This document shows, one piece after another, positions 10,750 through 37,475 of a stretch of 41,623 nt of DNA. The position numbers and the translations under genes are program-made. The stretch is from a virus: positions 1 to 41,623 of the IMG/VR virus record IMGVR_UViG_3300025642_000012, one strand, 5' to 3'. Numbering within the stretch: position 1 is the stretch's first letter; every line of letters starts with the position of its first letter. The notes under the pieces were generated by a model. It had not been told where the DNA came from and did no database searches. It worked only from the letters and a program-made list of their open reading frames with translations.

Positions 10750-10825
10750 TGGTAGGCTAGGATGGAATCGAACCATCTGCCAGTCCCTTATGAGAGGATT
10801 GCTCTAACCAATGAGCTACTAGCCT
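10750..10825 (-). tRNA. tRNA with CAU anticodon (Met, or Ile2 if modified), CCA encoded
   Basis: 76 nt cloverleaf on the minus strand. 7-bp acceptor AGGCTAG/CTAGCCT; D stem GCTC/GAGC; anticodon loop CTCATAA (anticodon CAT) on a stem with one A-C mismatch and one G-T pair; T arm GATGG-TTCGATT-CCATC; discriminator A and genomic CCA. The first 7 nt (10819-10825) overlap the last codons and TAG stop of rtcB, so the tRNA must be cut from the rtcB transcript. Met and lysidine-modified Ile2 cannot be told apart from sequence alone. Confidence 0.93.
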
Positions 10826-11979
10826 TTTATGACCGCCAATGGAGTTAGTTCCACTAAAATATCAACTAGCTCTTTTTGATTTTCCATAACAACATCAATA
10901 TCTTTGTACGAACCACTCGCTTCGTCTAAATCTTTTTCAGTTCGGATTCCGTGGATAATTCCTTGATCGTTGAGTATTTTTATTTCTTCCTCCAGATTAA
11001 GCTCTCTTTGAGCTTGTTTTCGACCCATACAGCGACCAGCTCCGTGCGAGCAAGACTCAAAAGATTCTTTGCAGCCTTTTCCTTTTACGATGTAGGATTT
11101 CGTGCCTTGGCTCCCCGGGATAATACCAACCGTCCCCTCTCGCGCCAGTGTCGCCCCCTTTCGGTGAACCATCACATTTGAACCGAAATGACTCTCCAAA
11201 GATGCGTAGTTGTGAGCTATGTTTATCACATCATCATAATCGAATACTCCAATAGTATTACCGAATGAGTTTAAACATTGAGCCATCATCTGTTTTCTGT
11301 TTGCCAAAGCAAACTCAACACAATAATTCATCTCTCTCAAATATGCTTGTCCCTCTTCGCTGTCGAGTGGCAGAAAAGCTAACTCGTGTTCTTTTGGAAC
11401 AGACGAGTGCCACTTTTCATTTAATTCAATAGCTAATTTATTGTAATGTTCGGCGACTTTAAAGCCAAGATTCCGCGATCCCGAATGAATCATAATCCAA
11501 ATATGACCATCTGAACCTTTTTGAATTTCGATAAAATGATTGCCTCCTCCTAGCGTCCCGATAGATTTAAGGGCATTGTTTTTTTCTTTATATGTAATTT
11601 CATCTTCCCATAACTCATAGTTCGGCAGCAAAGTCTTGTCTTGCGCTTCTTGATGTTTTGAAAATCCAACAGGAACAACCTTACGAATTTCACCCATTAT
11701 TTTTTTAAGAGTCTCAATATCAATGTCTGTTAAAGAAGTTCTAACTGCGCACATCCCACACCCAATATCGACACCAACTGCGTTTGGGATAACAACTCCT
11801 TTGGTCGCCATAACTCCTCCGATGGGCATTCCATAGCCGAGATGCGCGTCTGGCATCAAAGCAATGTGCTTGAAAACAAATGGCAAATTAGCCAAGTTTT
11901 TAGCCTGTTCAACTGCTCCATCCTCAATATCTTCAAGCCACATCTTGATCGGTATTTTTTCTGATGAGATAACTTTCAT
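10819..11979 (-). CDS. rtcB: RNA-splicing/repair ligase RtcB
   Basis: 386 aa. RtcB joins RNA 2',3'-cyclic phosphate (or 3'-phosphate) ends to 5'-OH ends using GTP and Mn2+, classically repairing or splicing tRNA. Family signatures are in order: PDAHLGYGMPIGG (43-55), VDIGCGM with metal-ligand C74, GGGNHF (N147, H148), HSGSRNLG (H165), NIAHNYA (H256) and SHGAGR with the guanylated His at 312. All expected catalytic residues are present and the length is normal for the shorter phage/bacterial form. It reads into an overlapping tRNA gene. A sigma70-like promoter ends 7 nt before its ATG, so the mRNA is probably leaderless. Likely role: repair of tRNAs cut by host anticodon nucleases. Confidence 0.95.
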   Translation of the reverse strand: MKVISSEKIPIKMWLEDIEDGAVEQAKNLANLPFVFKHIALMPDAHLGYGMPIGGVMATKGVVIPNAVGVDIGCGMCAVRTSLTDIDIETLKKIMGEIRKVVPVGFSKHQEAQDKTLLPNYELWEDEITYKEKNNALKSIGTLGGGNHFIEIQKGSDGHIWIMIHSGSRNLGFKVAEHYNKLAIELNEKWHSSVPKEHELAFLPLDSEEGQAYLREMNYCVEFALANRKQMMAQCLNSFGNTIGVFDYDDVINIAHNYASLESHFGSNVMVHRKGATLAREGTVGIIPGSQGTKSYIVKGKGCKESFESCSHGAGRCMGRKQAQRELNLEEEIKILNDQGIIHGIRTEKDLDEASGSYKDIDVVMENQKELVDILVELTPLAVIKG

Positions 11980-14483: not shown

Positions 14484-14521
14484 ATTTAGAAGTCTAATTT
14501 CTTATGCTGGCTCAATGCTCT
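14484..14521 (-). repeat. 38-bp direct repeat, copy A
   Basis: Matches 15008-15045 at 37 of 38 positions. Contains the inverted repeat TTAGA-AG-TCTAA and, on the minus strand, a TTGAGC box. Placed just before the ATG at 14482 and across the end of the pentapeptide gene. Confidence 0.85.
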
Positions 14522-14979
14522 ATTTTAAATCCAAGTGCTTCTAGGAATACTGGCACTTGTGTTTTTGTGAGAATTTTCGGGCTGGATGTTTTTCCATAAA
14601 ATTTGCAATTCATGAGGTCGGCACCGCAGAGGTCGGCACCGCAGAGGTTGGCACCGCGGAGGTTGGCACCGCGGAGGTTGGCACCGCGGAGGTTGGCATC
14701 GCAGAGGTCGGCACCGCAGAGGTCGGCACCGCAGAGGTCGGCACCGCGGAGGTTGGCATCGCGGAGGTTGGCATCGCTGAGGTTGGCATTGTTTTCAACT
14801 GCTTCAACTATTGCCTCTTTTATTGTTTCTCTATCAGACTGAAAAAGAATTGATCCGGTAAGTCTGTTTTTTATTTCTATTTTCCAACTCTTTTTTACCT
14901 CTTGTTTCTGGTCGCACTCGGAAACAAAACTTTGTAGCTCATCAATTTTTTTGAGAGCTTCTTCTTTTGTGATTTTCAT
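14512..14979 (-). CDS. Pentapeptide-repeat protein
   Basis: 155 aa. The first ~60 residues are helical and charged. Residues ~64-120 are about 12 pentapeptides of the A(D/N)L(R/C)(G/D) type, which fold into a right-handed beta-helix whose shape can mimic DNA, as in Qnr/MfpA gyrase-protecting proteins. The ending ALGFKIEH is short. TTAACCCCC lies 11 nt before ATG. The gene is bracketed by 38-bp direct repeats. A gyrase or other DNA-enzyme target is possible but unproven. Confidence 0.85.
14614..14790. repeat. 15-bp tandem repeat inside the pentapeptide gene
   Basis: About 12 consecutive 15-bp units (consensus GAGGTCGGCACCGCA on the + strand) encoding the pentapeptides. Near-identical units suggest recent expansion. 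Confidence 0.9.
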
Positions 14980-16822: not shown

Positions 16823-17206
16823 TTAAATATTAAATTTTTTGTAGCAATTATCAATGTCTTTTTCTTTATTTTTCTCAGCCGTATTCCAAATATTAGTCTG
16901 AGCTGTAACCCCCCCCTCGTCGTATCTTTTACCTTTTCCGTTTAACTCGACATAAGACCAGTAATCATAATCAGCAAGGTCGATGCACTTTTCAAGTTCT
17001 CTCTTTTTGGTGATTTCTTCGCCCCTAGCGTTGGCTTCCTCAATCAGAACTCTTTCTCGTTCGTTTTCAAGAATGAGATTCTCTTGGCTTATTTTCATTT
17101 CCAACTGCCTCTCGATTGAGTTCTGCTTCATCTTTTGAGAAGTTAGAACCGAGCCTCCGATGACAACGCAGATTATCGTTGCCGAGATGATGATTTCTTT
17201 TTTCAT
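16823..17206 (-). CDS. Membrane-anchored coiled-coil protein
   Basis: 127 aa. N-terminal anchor or signal segment at residues ~5-22 (IIISATIICVVIGGSVLT), then ~60 residues of Glu/Lys-rich coiled coil and a C-terminal domain with two Cys. TTTAACC with 9 nt to ATG decides the start. Spanin-like or membrane-tethering role possible; unknown. Confidence 0.6.
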   Translation of the reverse strand: MKKEIIISATIICVVIGGSVLTSQKMKQNSIERQLEMKISQENLILENERERVLIEEANARGEEITKKRELEKCIDLADYDYWSYVELNGKGKRYDEGGVTAQTNIWNTAEKNKEKDIDNCYKKFNI

Positions 17207-27380: not shown

Positions 27381-27747
27381 CTATTTCTTCTTTTACCTTT
27401 ATGTATAGCTCATTCGGTTCGATATGGTATAATTTAAAATAATAATCATAGAATTTTTTATAATGTTCTATATCGTGTTTTAGACTTTTGATTTTAGAAT
27501 TATGATCTTTTAGCAATTCTTTATCTGTTCCTTTTATTTCAGCAATAGCATTTCTCAATTCACTTCCCCATCTCCAACCGCTTGTATCCCAGATGCTGAT
27601 ATGTCCGTCGCCCTTTAGGTGCATAGTTACAGATCCAATAACTTGATCTGCAGTAAACGAGTTTAATATCTCGTTTTTTGTTTCACTGTCTAGCTGCTCG
27701 AAATAGTCAATAACATCTTCTTTCGTAGTTTCAATGTTCAGTTGCAT
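27367..27747 (-). CDS. Hypothetical protein
   Basis: 126 aa. Helical N-terminus, a Gly/Trp-rich beta hairpin (KGDGHISIWDTSGWRWG), then a long Lys-rich helix. Family unknown. TTAACCCCC with 10 nt to ATG. Palindrome repeat R1 lies directly upstream, beyond the start motif. Confidence 0.6.
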   Translation of the reverse strand: MQLNIETTKEDVIDYFEQLDSETKNEILNSFTADQVIGSVTMHLKGDGHISIWDTSGWRWGSELRNAIAEIKGTDKELLKDHNSKIKSLKHDIEHYKKFYDYYFKLYHIEPNELYIKVKEEIGEPT

Positions 27748-27765
27748 TTTAAAGGGGGTTAATTA

Positions 27766-27820
27766 GAGTGGTTAATCACTCACGCAAGCTCTCGGAGTGA
27801 GAGCAAGCGTGAAAGGTTAA
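27766..27820 (-). repeat. Intergenic tandem palindrome R1
   Basis: GAGTG-GTTAAT-CACTC hairpin joined to TCACGC-AA-GCTCTC...GAGAGC-AA-GCGTGA. Perfect double stem with a symmetric 2-nt internal mismatch. Sits between two small genes. Confidence 0.9.
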
Positions 27821-27823
27821 GCT

Positions 27824-28030
27824 TCAGATAGAATAAATCAATGCTTGTTTTGTAATATGAGTTGGCAAGTTTAGATTTTTGATATTATTAACAATGGTTT
27901 CGTTAGAGAACTTATTCTTTTTCCATCGTTTTATATTAGCGGCGAGAAGCTCTATTATTTTAGTTTCTGCTTCGACTGGCGATATGTTTAGTGTTTTCAT
28001 CTTTTGGGGGTTAAATTGAGTGTTAATCAC
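27824..28030 (-). CDS. Hypothetical small helical protein
   Basis: 68 aa, helical, basic middle (NIKRWKKNKFSNETIV). Family unknown. TTTAACCCCCAAAAG directly before ATG. Flanked by R1 and R2. Cassette member. Confidence 0.55.
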   Translation of the reverse strand: MINTQFNPQKMKTLNISPVEAETKIIELLAANIKRWKKNKFSNETIVNNIKNLNLPTHITKQALIYSI

Positions 28031-28070
28031 TCACGCAAGCCCCGGAGTCGAGGCAAGCGTGAAAGGTTAA
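28018..28070 (-). repeat. Intergenic tandem palindrome R2
   Basis: Same architecture as R1; inner stem GCCCCG/CGAGGC with one C-A mismatch, differing from R1 while keeping most pairs. Confidence 0.9.
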
Positions 28071-28071
28071 G

Positions 28072-28296
28072 CTAGTTTTTTGGATAGTCGGGATATTTCT
28101 TTTGAATTATTTTAGGCGGTCTGTTATCTTTTGTGTCATATTTAATGCAATCTTCATTCATGCAACTGTAAGTTGTCGCGAATCCGTTAAATCCTTTTGC
28201 ACGTTTCCGACCGCAAACTATGCATTTCTCCTCCTCCCTGCAATCTGTAAGGTTCTCGAATGTTTTTAGTAGGTCTTTTGGTTGAAGTTTAGACAT
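28072..28296 (-). CDS. Zinc-finger-like small protein
   Basis: 74 aa with EKCIVCGRKR and YSCMNEDC, a treble-clef or ribbon-like four-Cys site. Basic C-terminus. Starts after TTAACCCCC; TAG stop. Cassette member between R2 and R3. Target unknown. Confidence 0.6.
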   Translation of the reverse strand: MSKLQPKDLLKTFENLTDCREEEKCIVCGRKRAKGFNGFATTYSCMNEDCIKYDTKDNRPPKIIQKKYPDYPKN

Positions 28297-28315
28297 TTTA
28301 AAGGGGGTTAATTTT

Positions 28316-28369
28316 GAGTGTTAATCACTCACGCAAGCCCTCGAAGTAAGGGCAAGCGTGAAGGGTTAA
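28316..28369 (-). repeat. Intergenic tandem palindrome R3
   Basis: Same architecture; inner stem GCCCT/AGGGC. The TAA stop of the upstream gene (28366-28368) lies in its edge. Confidence 0.9.
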
Positions 28370-28662
28370 GCGGTGATTGATTCGGTGTTGTGTTTTCGGT
28401 TGCATTCGCTCCACTCTGCCGCTGCTTGAATGTATTTTTTAGCTTCTCTTTTTAATAATTCTCCCGACCAATTGCCGAAAAAATAATTGCGAATCTCTCT
28501 AATTGTCGAGATAGAACACTCGCCGAACTCTTCTTTAATTATTCCCCACGAATCCGAGTTGCTCGCGTCGAGTGAAGCCAGTGCAATCATCGCTTCAATC
28601 GCTTTACCAGTGAGAGTGTTTGATTCTCCGAGCGTTTCGAGATGCTGTTCAATGTTATTCAT
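28366..28662 (-). CDS. Hypothetical helical protein
   Basis: 98 aa, helical, with WSGELLKREAKKYIQAAAEW near the end. Family unknown. TTTAACCCCCAAAAG directly before ATG. Between R3 and R4. Confidence 0.6.
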   Translation of the reverse strand: MNNIEQHLETLGESNTLTGKAIEAMIALASLDASNSDSWGIIKEEFGECSISTIREIRNYFFGNWSGELLKREAKKYIQAAAEWSECNRKHNTESITA

Positions 28663-28680
28663 CTTTTGGGGGTTAAATTA

Positions 28681-28735
28681 GAGTGGTTAATCACTCACGC
28701 AAGCCCTCGGACCGAGAGCAAGCGTGAAGGGTTAA
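28681..28735 (-). repeat. Intergenic tandem palindrome R4
   Basis: Same architecture as R1; inner stem GCCCTC/GAGAGC with one mismatch. The TAA stop of the first cassette gene lies in its edge. Confidence 0.9.
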
Positions 28736-28929
28736 CTCATTTGCGAGTATTTTTCTGCTTGATGGTTTTTTATAAAATATTGAGCGTCTTTTTTAGTGTA
28801 AAATAGTGCAATTTCTGAAATTGTTTTGTCGCAGTATTTACGAACACAATTAAATTTTACGCACCATCCTTTTTTAATTTTTAAAGGCTTTTCGCTTGTT
28901 CCGAGAATTTTATCATTCTGTTTAAACAT
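28732..28929 (-). CDS. Hypothetical small Lys/Cys protein, first of cassette operon
   Basis: 65 aa from ATG at 28929; a longer frame to 28980 is rejected because it runs through the -35 and -10 boxes and through the TTAACCCCC motif. Basic, with CVKFNCVRKYC; family unknown. Leader predicted to be only ~17 nt. Confidence 0.55.
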   Translation of the reverse strand: MFKQNDKILGTSEKPLKIKKGWCVKFNCVRKYCDKTISEIALFYTKKDAQYFIKNHQAEKYSQMS

Positions 28930-31996: not shown

Positions 31997-33733
31997 ATGA
32001 CAAAACAGCAAAAGTTCGAAACGAATCAAGACAAAGATTTCGTGAGGGCTATGGATATTATGCGCTACGGCAGCCCCAAAGTAGACGCGTTTGTTAGGAG
32101 TGCGAAAGTAGTGACAGATATGTACGCAGACTGTTTTCGAGTGAGCGATGATATTAACGATATGACTAATCCGATGCTATTAGCGCAGGTTATTGATCGT
32201 ATTGTCGAACAGCTAAAACCACTAGATTACATCTTCAGAATACCAAGTTCAACCGAAGAAGAGAAGCAACTTTTAAGAGATGCACACTCGCAGATACTCG
32301 ATGAATCTGGGTTTATTTCTTGTCTTCGGGATGACCCGAGGGGCTTCCTCTCACAGGCACAAACAGGCAACACAATAATGCACTTCGGAGCAGAAGATTC
32401 CGACTTGACACCAATATACTTTCGGTGTTTGTCTATGTCTCAGGTGTTTTTTCCAACATCAGCAACCCAGCTTCGAAGCAAGAATGGTGACAATGACGCG
32501 AACGAGGCTTTCGTTATCTTCGAATATCCATCAGACGAGATTGATGAGAGATACCCAGAAGCAAAAGGGAAATATCTATGGGGAGACTTGCCAGAGGTGC
32601 AGGGTCAAGACGCGTATCAAAATGCAAATGATAATGTAGATCGTGACCGAGAACAGATCACCCAAGTCGGTATTTACTACAACGCTATTAAGAAAATCAA
32701 AAAGGTATTCATCGGGAGGACAGGCTATGAAGCCGATAAGGAGACAAAAAAAGACTGGAAGTATATTCTTGATGGTAAATCTTACATCCCGCTGCTTCAC
32801 TTTAAAGGCAAATCGCTTTTAGGTGAGATGTACGCAATGGGATTCGGACAGCAACACGCTAAACTTGCGAGAGAAGATCAGAGGCGTAGGAATATGGCAT
32901 TCAGACACATCGAGAACAATATTTATCCAACTCGTGGCATTCAAATGGAGGAGAGTAAATATGGAGTCTTTTTGAGCCAAATGTACGAAGCGGCACAACT
33001 TCGCCGAGATGGTGAAGATCCAATCGTTCGACTTGATCCGGGGACTTCGACAACCATTGAAACATTCAAAAGTGACCCACTCACTGGAGAGTTCGAACGA
33101 GCGAATAATGACACAACCGAACAGGTCAAAAGAAATGGCATTGCTTTACAGGATATAGATCGTCCAGCCACTCAAACAGCAACTCAAACTCTTGCTGAAG
33201 AAAGTGCAAGGATTCGTCCAGCAGTATCGATGCAAGAAACAAATGCTACCGAGTATCAGTTCGCGTATAGAATCATCATCGACTTTATGCGTCGTTTCAT
33301 CAAGCCAACCAACGACACCCCAGTGGTGACCAATGTTAAAGCGAAAGTAACCGAAACAGACGCAATGCGAAGAGGATTGCCAACTGAAAGAATCGGTGAA
33401 GAAGTGAGAGTCGAGGGAATCACTCTCGGTGATATTTCCGTCTTGCTGAAAGAAAAGAAAAAGATCATCGTGCAAGAAGACAGCCGCAGTGGAGCGTGGG
33501 AAACAGACGCATTCGTGATGTCTAAAGTGGGAATGGGCGCACAGTTCGCAGCTGGAACACAAGCTGAAACAAAATGGAGACAGAAGGGATTAATGGCTCT
33601 CGGTGAAGACACACTTGCTCAAGAACTTAAACCAATTCCAGATGAACAAAACGGAGGGAATGCTGCCAATCCCGCAGGACAGAATGCAGGACTACTTAAA
33701 GCGGCGAACCCTGGACAAGGACTATTGCAGTAG
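31997..33733 (+). CDS. Portal protein
   Basis: 578 aa directly after terL, with portal-like composition: a helical wing region, a central segment (FDIDR-like surroundings of AMGFGQQHAKLAREDQRRRNMAFRH is split by the family's helical stem) and a long Gln/Thr/Arg helical C-terminal part. Twelve copies form the DNA gate at the capsid vertex. Length fits podovirus portals. The call rests mainly on position and size. Own promoter with TATAAT. Confidence 0.8.
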   Translation: MTKQQKFETNQDKDFVRAMDIMRYGSPKVDAFVRSAKVVTDMYADCFRVSDDINDMTNPMLLAQVIDRIVEQLKPLDYIFRIPSSTEEEKQLLRDAHSQILDESGFISCLRDDPRGFLSQAQTGNTIMHFGAEDSDLTPIYFRCLSMSQVFFPTSATQLRSKNGDNDANEAFVIFEYPSDEIDERYPEAKGKYLWGDLPEVQGQDAYQNANDNVDRDREQITQVGIYYNAIKKIKKVFIGRTGYEADKETKKDWKYILDGKSYIPLLHFKGKSLLGEMYAMGFGQQHAKLAREDQRRRNMAFRHIENNIYPTRGIQMEESKYGVFLSQMYEAAQLRRDGEDPIVRLDPGTSTTIETFKSDPLTGEFERANNDTTEQVKRNGIALQDIDRPATQTATQTLAEESARIRPAVSMQETNATEYQFAYRIIIDFMRRFIKPTNDTPVVTNVKAKVTETDAMRRGLPTERIGEEVRVEGITLGDISVLLKEKKKIIVQEDSRSGAWETDAFVMSKVGMGAQFAAGTQAETKWRQKGLMALGEDTLAQELKPIPDEQNGGNAANPAGQNAGLLKAANPGQGLLQ

Positions 33734-33979: not shown

Positions 33980-34007
33980 TTGACTTTAATAAAAAATACA
34001 TTATCAT
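33980..34007 (+). promoter_or_regulatory. Sigma70-like promoter of structured RNA / capsid operon
   Basis: -35 TTGACT (33980-33985), 16-nt spacer, -10 TATCAT (34002-34007). Predicted start ~34014. Confidence 0.7.
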
Positions 34008-34013
34008 TTAAAT

Positions 34014-34147
34014 GATTAAGAAAATTTGCTCCTTGAAAATCACACCTTGCTAGTATCAGAGACGGCGGTTCGTCTCTGTCAAAACTACTAGCAAGGTGGG
34101 TTTGACAGATTACGAACCTCCCTCCCTGATACAAAATCAGGGTTTTT
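34014..34147 (+). ncRNA. Structured RNA with own promoter and terminator (sRNA or attenuator leader)
   Basis: Perfect 13-bp outer stem (34043-34055 with 34086-34098), inner 8-bp hairpin CAGAGACG/CGTCTCTG (34057-34064, 34071-34078) with loop GCGGTT. GGTTCGT (34067-34073) is complementary to ACGAACC (34112-34118), allowing a loop interaction or switch. Ends in an intrinsic terminator. Precedes the scaffold start by 20 nt. Could be an independent ~133-nt RNA or a leader that gates capsid gene transcription. Confidence 0.7.
34124..34147 (+). terminator. Intrinsic terminator upstream of scaffold gene
   Basis: CCCTGAT (34124-34130) / ATCAGGG (34136-34142), 5-nt loop, TTTTT then ATATTT. A competing GGGTT/AACCC pairing with the initiation motif at 34151-34160 is possible. 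Confidence 0.8.
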
Positions 34148-34167
34148 ATATTTAACCCCCCATAAAA

Positions 34168-34872
34168 ATGTCTAGTGAAACCAACGACAACATCGACGAG
34201 CTAAAAGCCGTCGAAGCTGCCGAGTCGGTGATAGCAGACCCAGACTCTACGGAGGATGAGAAAGCTGAAGCCAAAACGGTAATCGAAACTGCTGAAAACG
34301 CAGAATCGAAAAAGAAAGAGGAAACCGATGAGGAAGAGGCACACAAAAAAAGGGTGTGGACTGGGATGATCGAGTCCGAAGTGACCAAAATCGCTTTAAG
34401 GGACGATTACTCAATCGACAACCTGCCACTAGGGAAGCTTCGGGAAGCTGTGGAGAAACACTTGAAAGATAAATTATCTCCAAAAGTATCTCAACAGACA
34501 GATGAAGACAAACTCGTGCAAAGAGCAGTCGAGGAAACTAAAACGCAAATCCTCCTTGACCAAGCAAAAAGCCTCCTGCCAGAAGAACACGGAGAACCAT
34601 TCGTTTCAGAATACGAAGAGCTAAAGACAAAAGGCTACACTGCCACCGAAGCTCTCGATAAAGCTAAACGAATCTACCAAGTTCCAACAGCAGAAGACAA
34701 ACGGAGAAGTGATGATCTCAATTCTATGAGAGCTGTCAAAGGAGGCTCGGTATCTCCTAACCGCGTAAGCGGAGCATATGACCCAGTAGAACACGAGAAA
34801 TTCAACGCTCAACAAAAGAAAATGGGGCTTAGCGCAGTGTCAAAAGAGGCATTCCTCAAAGTAAATAATTAA
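34168..34872 (+). CDS. Capsid scaffolding protein
   Basis: 234 aa, highly charged (Glu/Lys/Ala) and mostly helical, beginning with an acidic coiled-coil-like stretch and lacking globular motifs, as expected for a scaffold. Sits just before the capsid genes. TTTAACCCCCC with 11 nt to ATG. Call is by composition and position. Confidence 0.65.
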   Translation: MSSETNDNIDELKAVEAAESVIADPDSTEDEKAEAKTVIETAENAESKKKEETDEEEAHKKRVWTGMIESEVTKIALRDDYSIDNLPLGKLREAVEKHLKDKLSPKVSQQTDEDKLVQRAVEETKTQILLDQAKSLLPEEHGEPFVSEYEELKTKGYTATEALDKAKRIYQVPTAEDKRRSDDLNSMRAVKGGSVSPNRVSGAYDPVEHEKFNAQQKKMGLSAVSKEAFLKVNN

Positions 34873-34892: not shown

Positions 34893-35426
34893 ATGTCTTT
34901 CAATTATGTAGGCTCACGCAACGGCGCACAACGCAATCTGACAGAACCAATCGTCATCACTACCAGTGATGTTGTGGCTGTCGGCTCTGTCGTAGAAACT
35001 TATTCTGCGGGAACTGCGGGTTATGGTGCTGCTGCCCAGCCGATCAAAGGTATTGTCCACGCCATCGTAGATGCTGATGGACTGCCGATCACAAACTCGA
35101 CACATACTGCTGGAACAGCCCACTCGGCTGACAATGCCAGCGTCACTGGTGATGGAACTCAATATGTCATTATCGACACAAGCGAATCTTCGCTTTACTC
35201 CGCTACTGTTAGTGGAACAATCGGTACAACTGTTAGCTCGGATTCTGGTTTTTGCAAAATTGATGTTGATTCGTCAAATACTAATTACAATCAACTCTTG
35301 GAAACAACTGCTACTCGTACTATTGGAACACCTGCAAACTTCTACTCACACGGTGTTGACCCTCAAGACTCAACTCGTCTTATTGTCAGTATCGCAATGT
35401 CGGAAGAAGCTTCTGTTCTCGAATAA
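34893..35426 (+). CDS. Capsid decoration / head-stabilising protein candidate
   Basis: 177 aa, Thr/Ser/Ala/Gly-rich beta protein, similar in composition to decoration proteins that lie next to major capsid genes. Starts after TTTTAACTCAAA-type motif (11 nt). No specific family recognised. Confidence 0.55.
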   Translation: MSFNYVGSRNGAQRNLTEPIVITTSDVVAVGSVVETYSAGTAGYGAAAQPIKGIVHAIVDADGLPITNSTHTAGTAHSADNASVTGDGTQYVIIDTSESSLYSATVSGTIGTTVSSDSGFCKIDVDSSNTNYNQLLETTATRTIGTPANFYSHGVDPQDSTRLIVSIAMSEEASVLE

Positions 35427-35454: not shown

Positions 35455-36468
35455 ATGTCTGTAATTGAAACATCGGCGACTCTCGGCTCCCCCTTCCTTA
35501 AAGGAATTACAGCCGAACTCGCTGACATAACTTCTCAAGTAGATTCTCAATATGCACTCGCCAAAGATACTGTCTTAGGTGTTGATAAAAACGAGGCATC
35601 GAGTCTATTTAAGAACAAAACATCCGATAAAGCTCGTGAGACTATCTCGGGTGTGAGCGCAATTGGTAAATTGCAAAAAACCGCAGAAGGTGCTGACTAT
35701 AAATCTGATTCTCGAATCTCGACTTATGTCACGCAGTTCGAGTGGGAGAAATATACGAGTGGTATTACGATCACAGAGGAAGACCGAGACGATCAAATTG
35801 TTAGCGAGAAATTGGATCGAGCGAAAGCTCTCCTTGTCGCTGGGATGACGACTCTCAATCAACACTCTTTCGATCTGTTCAACTACTCGCAAACAGCTCA
35901 AGCGTCTTTGCCTGACCATTTGACCTTTTACGGTGATGGTGTGCCTTTCGGTTCAATCATTCATCCAATCAAAGGAACAGGTGGGACTCAAAGCAACGCC
36001 TCCGCAACAGGTATTCCGTTTACCGAAGACAACCTTGAAACGGCTCGTCTTGCCTTGATGGCTCAACGAGGAGATAAAGCTGGTGAAACTCTCAACTATG
36101 GTCGTAGCAAACTCATCCTTTGGGGTGCTCCTGCTATCGAGAAAAAAATGATCATCGCAACAAGAGGTGAAAAACGTTCTGGAACTGCCAACAACGATGT
36201 CAGCATCTACGATGGCTTGTTCACGACTGTCTCTTCACAGCTCTTGGCTGCTGCCAATGGTGGTTCGGATACTCGCTGGGGCTTGATTGACCCGATGAAC
36301 ACTCCTGCTGCCTTTTGGACACGCCGCGCTCTTACTCTCGGAACTCCGTATGTCACTGACTCGAACAAAAACATCACTGTTGATATTTCTGCTCGATACA
36401 AAGTCGGCAATAAAGACTTCCGTGGATTCTGGGTTTCTGGTGGTGATTCTGCTGCTTACGCTCTCTAA
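35455..36468 (+). CDS. Major capsid protein (HK97-like)
   Basis: 337 aa following scaffold and decoration candidates. Features fitting HK97-fold capsids: helical N-arm, FEWEKYTSGITITEEDRDD (E-loop/spine region), a long LETARLALMAQRGDKAGE helix and a C-terminal half with MNTPAAFWTRRALTLGTPYV. TTTTAAC with 11 nt to ATG. A perfect 7-bp hairpin follows its stop. High expression expected. Confidence 0.8.
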   Translation: MSVIETSATLGSPFLKGITAELADITSQVDSQYALAKDTVLGVDKNEASSLFKNKTSDKARETISGVSAIGKLQKTAEGADYKSDSRISTYVTQFEWEKYTSGITITEEDRDDQIVSEKLDRAKALLVAGMTTLNQHSFDLFNYSQTAQASLPDHLTFYGDGVPFGSIIHPIKGTGGTQSNASATGIPFTEDNLETARLALMAQRGDKAGETLNYGRSKLILWGAPAIEKKMIIATRGEKRSGTANNDVSIYDGLFTTVSSQLLAAANGGSDTRWGLIDPMNTPAAFWTRRALTLGTPYVTDSNKNITVDISARYKVGNKDFRGFWVSGGDSAAYAL

Positions 36469-36474
36469 ATATCT

Positions 36475-36495
36475 GGGGAGGCGAAATTCCTCCCC
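36475..36495 (+). other. Hairpin after major capsid gene
   Basis: GGGGAGG (36475-36481) / CCTCCCC (36489-36495), 7-nt loop, no T-run. Likely mRNA 3'-stabiliser or weak attenuator. Confidence 0.6.
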
Positions 36496-36515
36496 ATCAA
36501 TTTAACCACAATAAA

Positions 36516-37475
36516 ATGACTGATTTAAGCTCATTAAATGTCGCAGGGATTCCAACGCTCGGTGCAGGTGGTGGACTTCCGACTACTCCCGGTAAGTATA
36601 TCTTCGTTGATTACGGTGCTGGAAGTGACGGCAATACGGGTGAAACAATGAAAGAACCTGTAAAAACTATCGCGCAAGCTTATTCTATGGCTCGCACGAA
36701 CAAAGACGACACTCTCGTGCTGATTGGTAATTCCACTCACACGATAACCTCAATGATAGATGGTTCTAAAAATCGTGTCCACCTTGTTGGACTTGATTGC
36801 ACAAACCGTTTGTATGGTCAAAACGCAAAAATTTCAATGGGCGTAACTACTGCAGCAACTGATGTTTTTGGATTCAAAGATACTGGCGTTAGAACTTCTT
36901 TTGCCAATATTAAGTTTATGAGTAGCAATACTAAAACTGAGCACGTAGCTACCTTTGGAGGCGGTGGAGAATATACCAAGTTCACGAATTGTGAATTTTA
37001 CGCATCCGGCAAACAGGCTTCTGATACTCATGCAGAATTTGTTCATAATATTGATTCTCCACAATTCAGTAACTGTACATTTGGCTCATTAGCCACTGCT
37101 GTCACTGGTAATAAAATTCGCCCAGCTATGCTTTTAACAAAAGGAACTGTAGCTGCTGGAGCAGTAGCTAGAGATACTTACATGCATAATTGCAGATTTT
37201 GGAAACTTGCAGGTGGAACAGCTACGGCAATGATTAAAGGTGCTTCTAATGATGTAGAAAGAGATTTTGAACTACATGATTGTCAATTTGTTGCTGCACC
37301 ACTTGGTTCAACTCCAGCCGTAGCTATTGATTCAGGCACACAAGCAAGAGGCTATATACGTTTAACAGGAGACACAGCGGCTACTAATTGCACAAAGATT
37401 GCAACTGATATTGGTGTATTTAATGTAACACCTGCTCGTGCTGCTACTGCGACTATTGGTATTCAAGCTACTTAA
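36516..37475 (+). CDS. Right-handed beta-helix virion protein
   Basis: 319 aa. IFVDYGAGSDGNTGETMKEP then a series of strand-turn units (FANIKFMSSN, FTNCEFYASG, FSNCTFGSLA, MHNCRFWKLAG, LHDCQFVAAP) typical of parallel beta-helices such as pectate-lyase-like spike or head-fibre proteins. Location just after the capsid gene suggests a head decoration fibre rather than tail spike. No catalytic residues recognised. Confidence 0.65.
   Translation: MTDLSSLNVAGIPTLGAGGGLPTTPGKYIFVDYGAGSDGNTGETMKEPVKTIAQAYSMARTNKDDTLVLIGNSTHTITSMIDGSKNRVHLVGLDCTNRLYGQNAKISMGVTTAATDVFGFKDTGVRTSFANIKFMSSNTKTEHVATFGGGGEYTKFTNCEFYASGKQASDTHAEFVHNIDSPQFSNCTFGSLATAVTGNKIRPAMLLTKGTVAAGAVARDTYMHNCRFWKLAGGTATAMIKGASNDVERDFELHDCQFVAAPLGSTPAVAIDSGTQARGYIRLTGDTAATNCTKIATDIGVFNVTPARAATATIGIQAT

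Follow-up and report, generated by a model that had tools for sequence, protein, structure and literature searches.

A candidate transcription attenuator with two competing RNA folds ahead of the scaffold and capsid genes of an uncultivated phage

Directly upstream of its scaffold-like gene, the phage analysed here encodes a strongly folded RNA (34043-34147), for which two mutually exclusive and nearly isoenergetic folds are predicted. One of them contains an intrinsic terminator, and the other takes up most of that terminator's 5′ arm. We propose, with a probability of roughly 0.62, that this element is a transcription attenuator controlling the scaffold-decoration-capsid operon. The window comprises the whole of an IMG/VR virus record (41,623 bases).

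Locus and parts of the element

The element and the genes around it are as follows.

31997-33733, plus strand: portal gene, upstream of the element, 34% identity to L106
33603-33974, plus strand: small gene of 123 aa, overlapping the end of the portal gene, directly 5′ of the element
33980-34007, plus strand: sigma70-like promoter TTGACT-16-TATCAT, 10/12 consensus, predicted transcription start near 34014
34043-34055, plus strand: arm a, 5′ arm of the 13-bp stem 1, with analogous arms in L189, L190, L192 and L107
34053-34085, plus strand: segment c, 5′ half of the antiterminator hairpin
34057-34064/34071-34078, plus strand: inner hairpin of 8 bp in state A, contained in segment c
34086-34098, plus strand: arm a′, 3′ arm of stem 1, lying in the apical loop of the antiterminator
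34100-34132, plus strand: segment c′, 3′ half of the antiterminator hairpin, including 34126-34130 of the terminator 5′ arm
34124-34147, plus strand: intrinsic terminator, a 7-bp hairpin (34124-34130/34136-34142) followed by U5 (34143-34147)
34168-34872, plus strand: scaffold-like gene, the first gene behind the switch, between the portal and the decoration and major capsid protein genes
34893-35426, plus strand: decoration-like gene, function by position only
35455-36468, plus strand: major capsid protein (MCP) gene, Pfam Phage_capsid_4 (5.6e-09)

The names portal and scaffold were given by gene position and by the family matches of relatives. Genes at the position of the portal gene in the related loci L189, L107 and L027 match portal or connector families, and the scaffold-like proteins were without a match to any family in the family search. 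The scaffold-like gene shares 33% identity over 172 aa with the L106 gene at the same position, and the decoration-like gene 53-66% with the same-position genes of L189, L190 and L192. By its position, the 123-aa gene is the counterpart of genes of 86-110 aa in relatives. The initial annotation had placed the element between the portal and scaffold genes, which is correct except that this small ORF intervenes after the portal gene.

The unit it described, a promoter, nested perfect stems and a terminator at 33980-34167, is present there. Its 13-bp and 8-bp stems correspond to 34043-34055/34086-34098 and 34057-34064/34071-34078, and the terminator (hairpin 34124-34142, T5 at 34143-34147) does end 20 nt before the scaffold ATG at 34168. 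The promoter call also holds at 10 of 12 consensus positions, a score that is by itself not above chance (6 sites of at least 9/12 found in 4 kb against 5.5 expected); a minus-strand promoter-like site inside the scaffold gene (34739-34712, 10/12), the only one recorded as a possible start for an antisense RNA, is likewise no more than chance. Folding energies, calculated with ViennaRNA at 37 °C, set the region apart. The minimum for 33980-34167 is -51.7 kcal/mol compared with a shuffle mean of -29.7 (z -6.4; 0 of 200 shuffles as good), and in a composition-corrected scan of both strands of the 41.6 kb the windows covering the element rank first. Neither the window nor 12 related loci gave a match to Rfam covariance models at the gathering score, with chance-level matches only below it; the element is not a known Rfam family. 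No further copies of the arms were found elsewhere in the genome.

Several other features of this phage were recorded along the way. Directly 3′ of the MCP gene, at 36475-36497, lies a hairpin, GGGGAGG..CCTCCCC, that lacks a clear U-tract. An imperfect hairpin, CACGCTTGC..GCTTGCGTG, occurs in four minus-strand copies (27745-27822, 28006-28073, 28294-28371 and 28660-28737) in the gaps of a minus-strand gene cluster, most copies being followed by TTAACCCCC and a start codon. Genes have no Shine-Dalgarno sequence, and many carry TTTAACC 8 nt before the ATG (seven exact cases of TTTAACC-N8-ATG; examples are the gene starts at 17206, 18246, 27157 and 28662 on the minus strand and at 36516 and 38036 on the plus strand), possibly an unusual start signal of the phage or its host. 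Also on the minus strand, at 10750-11979, a tRNA-Met (CAT) adjoins an RNA ligase RtcB gene, and at 14512-14979 a gene for a pentapeptide-repeat-like protein contains an array of 15-nt repeats. A 91% direct repeat with 156-nt spacing occupies the very end of the contig (41341-41467/41497-41623).

Two competing folds of the leader RNA

In state A, arms a and a′ form the 13-bp stem 1, which is accompanied by the inner 8-bp hairpin and the intrinsic terminator; the 5′ part of c′ then folds into a local hairpin (34099-34104/34113-34118). State B is a long imperfect hairpin in which c (34053-34085) pairs with c′ (34100-34132), interrupted by single mismatches. As c′ covers five of the seven bases of the terminator 5′ arm, state B acts as an antiterminator in the predicted structures. 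A pairing of the loop GGTTCGT (34067-34073) with ACGAACC (34112-34118), which had been suggested previously, is possible but forms only part of this longer complementarity. A full pseudoknot comprising all pairs of both helices was rejected, since the pair map leaves no nucleotides to cross the 13-bp stem.

For the transcript 34014-34150, the predicted probabilities are 0.48 for state A and 0.52 for state B, and the computed barrier from A to B amounts to about 25 kcal/mol. With similar energies and such a barrier, the outcome should be set during transcription. A temperature switch was discarded, as the terminator probability changes little, being 0.57 at 0 °C and still 0.29 at 45 °C. When ten bases of arm a are withheld from pairing, the probability of the terminator falls to 0.033, compared with a mean of 0.98 for shuffled controls, only one of 2,000 being as low; in these controls only bases unpaired in state A were shuffled, and they were designed post hoc with the fold already seen. 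For this reason, the comparison with relatives and the position-independent scan carry more weight than the controls on the window. The energy of 5′-arm sequestration taken alone is unexceptional, with shuffles as good in 41 of 500 cases for the window, 34 for L190 and 63 for L191.

A stepwise-folding heuristic, which is crude and gives outcomes for L189 and L190 that vary with the barrier limit, brought the window and L107 to the terminator state at barrier limits of at least 8 kcal/mol. In both, the rival fold is at least as stable as the terminator state; stepwise folding nevertheless ends in the latter because a:a′ forms before c′ exists.

Related phages and a position-independent scan

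Copies of this phage in IMG/VR are identical, and peptide-word searches with the window's own proteins returned these copies, one remote terminase match or nothing. INPHARED phages gave no match to the MCP or portal at 1e-5. INPHARED MCPs at 21-23% identity were used for a first alignment, and successive MCP alignments were then scanned for relatives. The MCPs of the loci so obtained are 29% (L026, L027), 46% (L107), 50% (L106/L191, L190), 51% (L192), 58% (L189) and 42-46% (L194-L203) identical to that of the window. Their usual gene order is portal, small gene, gap, scaffold-like gene, decoration-like gene and MCP.

In L189, L190, L192 and L107, the pre-scaffold gap contains the same interleaved order of segments, a, c, a′, c′, with the terminator 5′ arm inside c′. 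The letters of the element differ, arm a reading CACCUUGCUAGUA in the window, AGAACAGCGAG in L189, ACACGAC in L190, ACUCUAC in L192 and AUAUCCCAUCACA in L107. Conservation of the paired bases, which the initial annotation had taken as a touchstone, is thus found for the helices and their order but not for the sequence. Owing to this lack of sequence conservation, covariation is countable only for L190 against L192, where two of the seven a:a′ pairs show double compensatory changes, as do two of twelve pairs in the outer part of c:c′, one position of the latter being a non-standard pair in L190. For each of the window, L189, L190, L192 and L107, the fold of a transcript cut before the terminator 3′ arm is better than 500 of 500 shuffles. 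The probability of the terminator differs among these relatives, being 0.93-0.94 for L189 and L190 and about 0 for L192 and L107.

The element is weak or absent in L106/L191, and absent from those of the sister phages L194-L202 that were examined, several of which carry a different conserved RNA at the pre-scaffold place. This second small RNA is located at 3589-3632 in L107 and at the same place in L194, L195, L197, L198, L199 and L201. It consists of a closing stem, a hairpin with the loop A(U)GNCA whose pairs occur in several compensatory forms, and single-stranded AAAACAGGU, 6-15 nt before the scaffold start codon. It had no Rfam match and was not seen in the window.

Promoter-like sites of at least 10/12 precede the scaffold gene by no more than 300 nt in 7 of 17 related loci, where 0.86 would be expected (P ~6e-6, a value that ignores the relatedness of the loci and is hence too small). 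No such site occurs in that interval in L189, L190 and L192. The promoter was accordingly dropped as a defining feature of the element, and in these three phages the switch would act on transcripts coming from upstream.

To search without a choice of place, a two-state score was computed for 577 terminator-like hairpins, collected from 189 loci (1.5 Mb, both strands); it combines a stable upstream fold with a stable fold sequestering the 5′ arm of the hairpin. Two terminators missed by the finder (L192 and L107) were added by hand. Among the 230 hairpins that passed the sequestration filter, the top four are those of L137, the window (rank 2), L189 and L190, and all four sit directly 5′ of a scaffold-like gene. 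Hand-added L107 came sixth; hand-added L192 was lost at the exchange filter, since the antiterminator already incorporates its upstream fold. The element of L137, a distant relative, was found only by the scan, and an 8-bp a:a′ (AUAACCGC/GCGGUUAU) can be drawn in it by eye. As the loci were fetched by their MCP, the scan is silent on the frequency of the switch in phages at large; no other evidence speaks as strongly for the arrangement being real and linked to the pre-scaffold place.

Attenuator model, alternatives and known systems

Two hallmarks of an attenuator are found here: an intrinsic terminator upstream of the gene to be controlled and a predicted second fold which occupies one arm of the terminator and is incompatible with it, the latter likewise in relatives. 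The earlier suggestion of an attenuator for the capsid genes thereby gains substance from the antiterminator overlapping the terminator 5′ arm and from the same architecture ahead of the scaffold gene in five other phages. In the model that we favour, the leader would be transcribed from the promoter-like site at 33980-34007. As it is made, a and a′ would pair first and keep c from c′, so that the terminator could form and actually stop transcription before the scaffold gene. Were arm a unavailable as a′ emerges, c would pair with c′ during the synthesis of c′, and the c:c′ hairpin would take the terminator 5′ arm before the 3′ arm exists, allowing read-through into the scaffold and capsid genes. 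An occupant of arm a would thus permit c:c′ ahead of the terminator 3′ arm, and the choice between the two folds would be a regulated one. By this model, it is probably RNA folding that gates capsid production.

Since arm a differs completely among relatives, what withholds it should be either phage-specific or not sequence-specific. In the first case one may think of an antisense RNA or of a co-evolving protein that binds RNA, possibly the scaffold protein; in the second, of the ribosome or the speed of transcription. Synthesis of the P22 scaffold protein is autoregulated, and the scaffold protein of this phage, acting on its own operon, would be an obvious possibility.

Among the alternatives, a constitutive and perhaps leaky terminator, combined with a long hairpin that serves as a processing or stabilising site like the RNase III sites between phage genes, would fix the ratio of portal to capsid transcripts and leave the second fold without a regulatory role. 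Hairpins do occur in several other gaps of this phage, and L026 and L027 have long nested hairpins and a terminator at this place with no obvious switch. Such a terminator, however, needs no fold that sequesters its 5′ arm, yet folds of this kind are seen again in five phages of differing sequence, and in the pair L190 and L192 each of the competing helices carries compensatory changes; we consider this explanation unlikely. The element might instead be a small-RNA gene, as the initial annotation also offered, with read-through into the scaffold gene being incidental. The promoter-like site and the terminator bracket the fold and would release a structured RNA of ~133 nt, and promoter-like sites are enriched at this place in relatives. 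Against a function in trans, no significant target emerged in the genome (complementarity of the leader to this phage's gene starts was not above chance, P 0.07), the arms are not conserved, and L189, L190 and L192 have the switch but no promoter was found there, which makes this reading quite improbable.

Leader-peptide attenuation would have a ribosome on a 13-codon ORF (34012-34053) block arm a and thereby favour the antiterminator. The stop codon of this ORF does lie inside arm a, and the small gene of L137 likewise has its stop codon in the candidate arm a. Its ATG at 34012, however, precedes the predicted transcription start near 34014, and of the relatives compared for such a short ORF, L189, L192 and L107 have none and L190 just an ATG at the end of the arm. 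As a general mechanism it was therefore rejected, being possible in the window but not conserved in relatives, and we judge it very unlikely. The put-like RNA considered in the initial annotation, which would modify the polymerase in cis so that later terminators are ignored, agrees with the two stem-loops near a promoter. Against this proposal, the element contains a terminator of its own, with which it competes by sequestering the 5′ arm; moreover, there is no Rfam match, and arm and loop sequences are not conserved. We give it hardly any credence.

The attenuator that we propose recalls several known systems. Amino-acid operon attenuators of the trp and his kind let early pairing in the leader decide whether the terminator forms, as would be the case here; unlike them, the element has no conserved leader peptide, and its folds exclude each other through the interleaving of helices in addition to the sharing of strands. 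In the immunity of phage P4, premature termination goes together with the pairing state of a phage leader RNA and with the CI RNA; P4 differs in acting on early genes through a processed RNA from the same operon, a trans-acting RNA being only hypothetical here. The put RNA of HK022 also consists of stem-loops in a phage leader and modifies the polymerase, but is without the terminator that this element carries. Control by an attenuator and antiterminator was reportedly proposed for the phage P1 ref gene by Windle, Laufer and Hays in 1988. The likeness to our case is a phage gene proposed to be under attenuation and antitermination, although ref is a recombination gene and not a capsid operon. 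Attenuators of pT181-type plasmids are controlled by antisense RNA and have a 5′ leader with two exclusive folds, the outcome being set during transcription, and their specificity sequences are exchangeable while the ON and OFF folds are retained (PMC4878617). The element resembles them in its two predicted exclusive folds, in an outcome that should be set during transcription and in sequence that varies while the folds are kept. It departs from them in the interleaving of its a:a′ and c:c′ pairings, in its place before phage scaffold and capsid genes, and in a stepwise-folding default that is termination in the window and not read-through. Membership in the pT181 family is not claimed, an antisense RNA being only a candidate regulator here.

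In the open-licence literature, we found no published description of such a switch before phage scaffold or capsid genes. The element may represent an undescribed class of late-gene control in phages, a leader switch whose topology (a, c, a′, c′ overlapping a terminator) is fixed while its sequence drifts freely, and which is read by an effector particular to each phage, for instance an antisense RNA or unassembled scaffold protein; we put this forward tentatively and hold it to be rather doubtful. In well-studied phages, late genes are described as being under positive control, by Q-like antiterminators or late activators (PMC10695390). A folding switch directly upstream of scaffold and capsid genes would offer another means of tuning how much capsid protein is made, and when. 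At least six uncultivated phages share the arrangement although their sequences are unrelated, and for lack of sequence conservation, sequence-based searches for RNA families are blind to it. With the two-state terminator score no alignment is needed to find it, and the score may be used on any phage collection.
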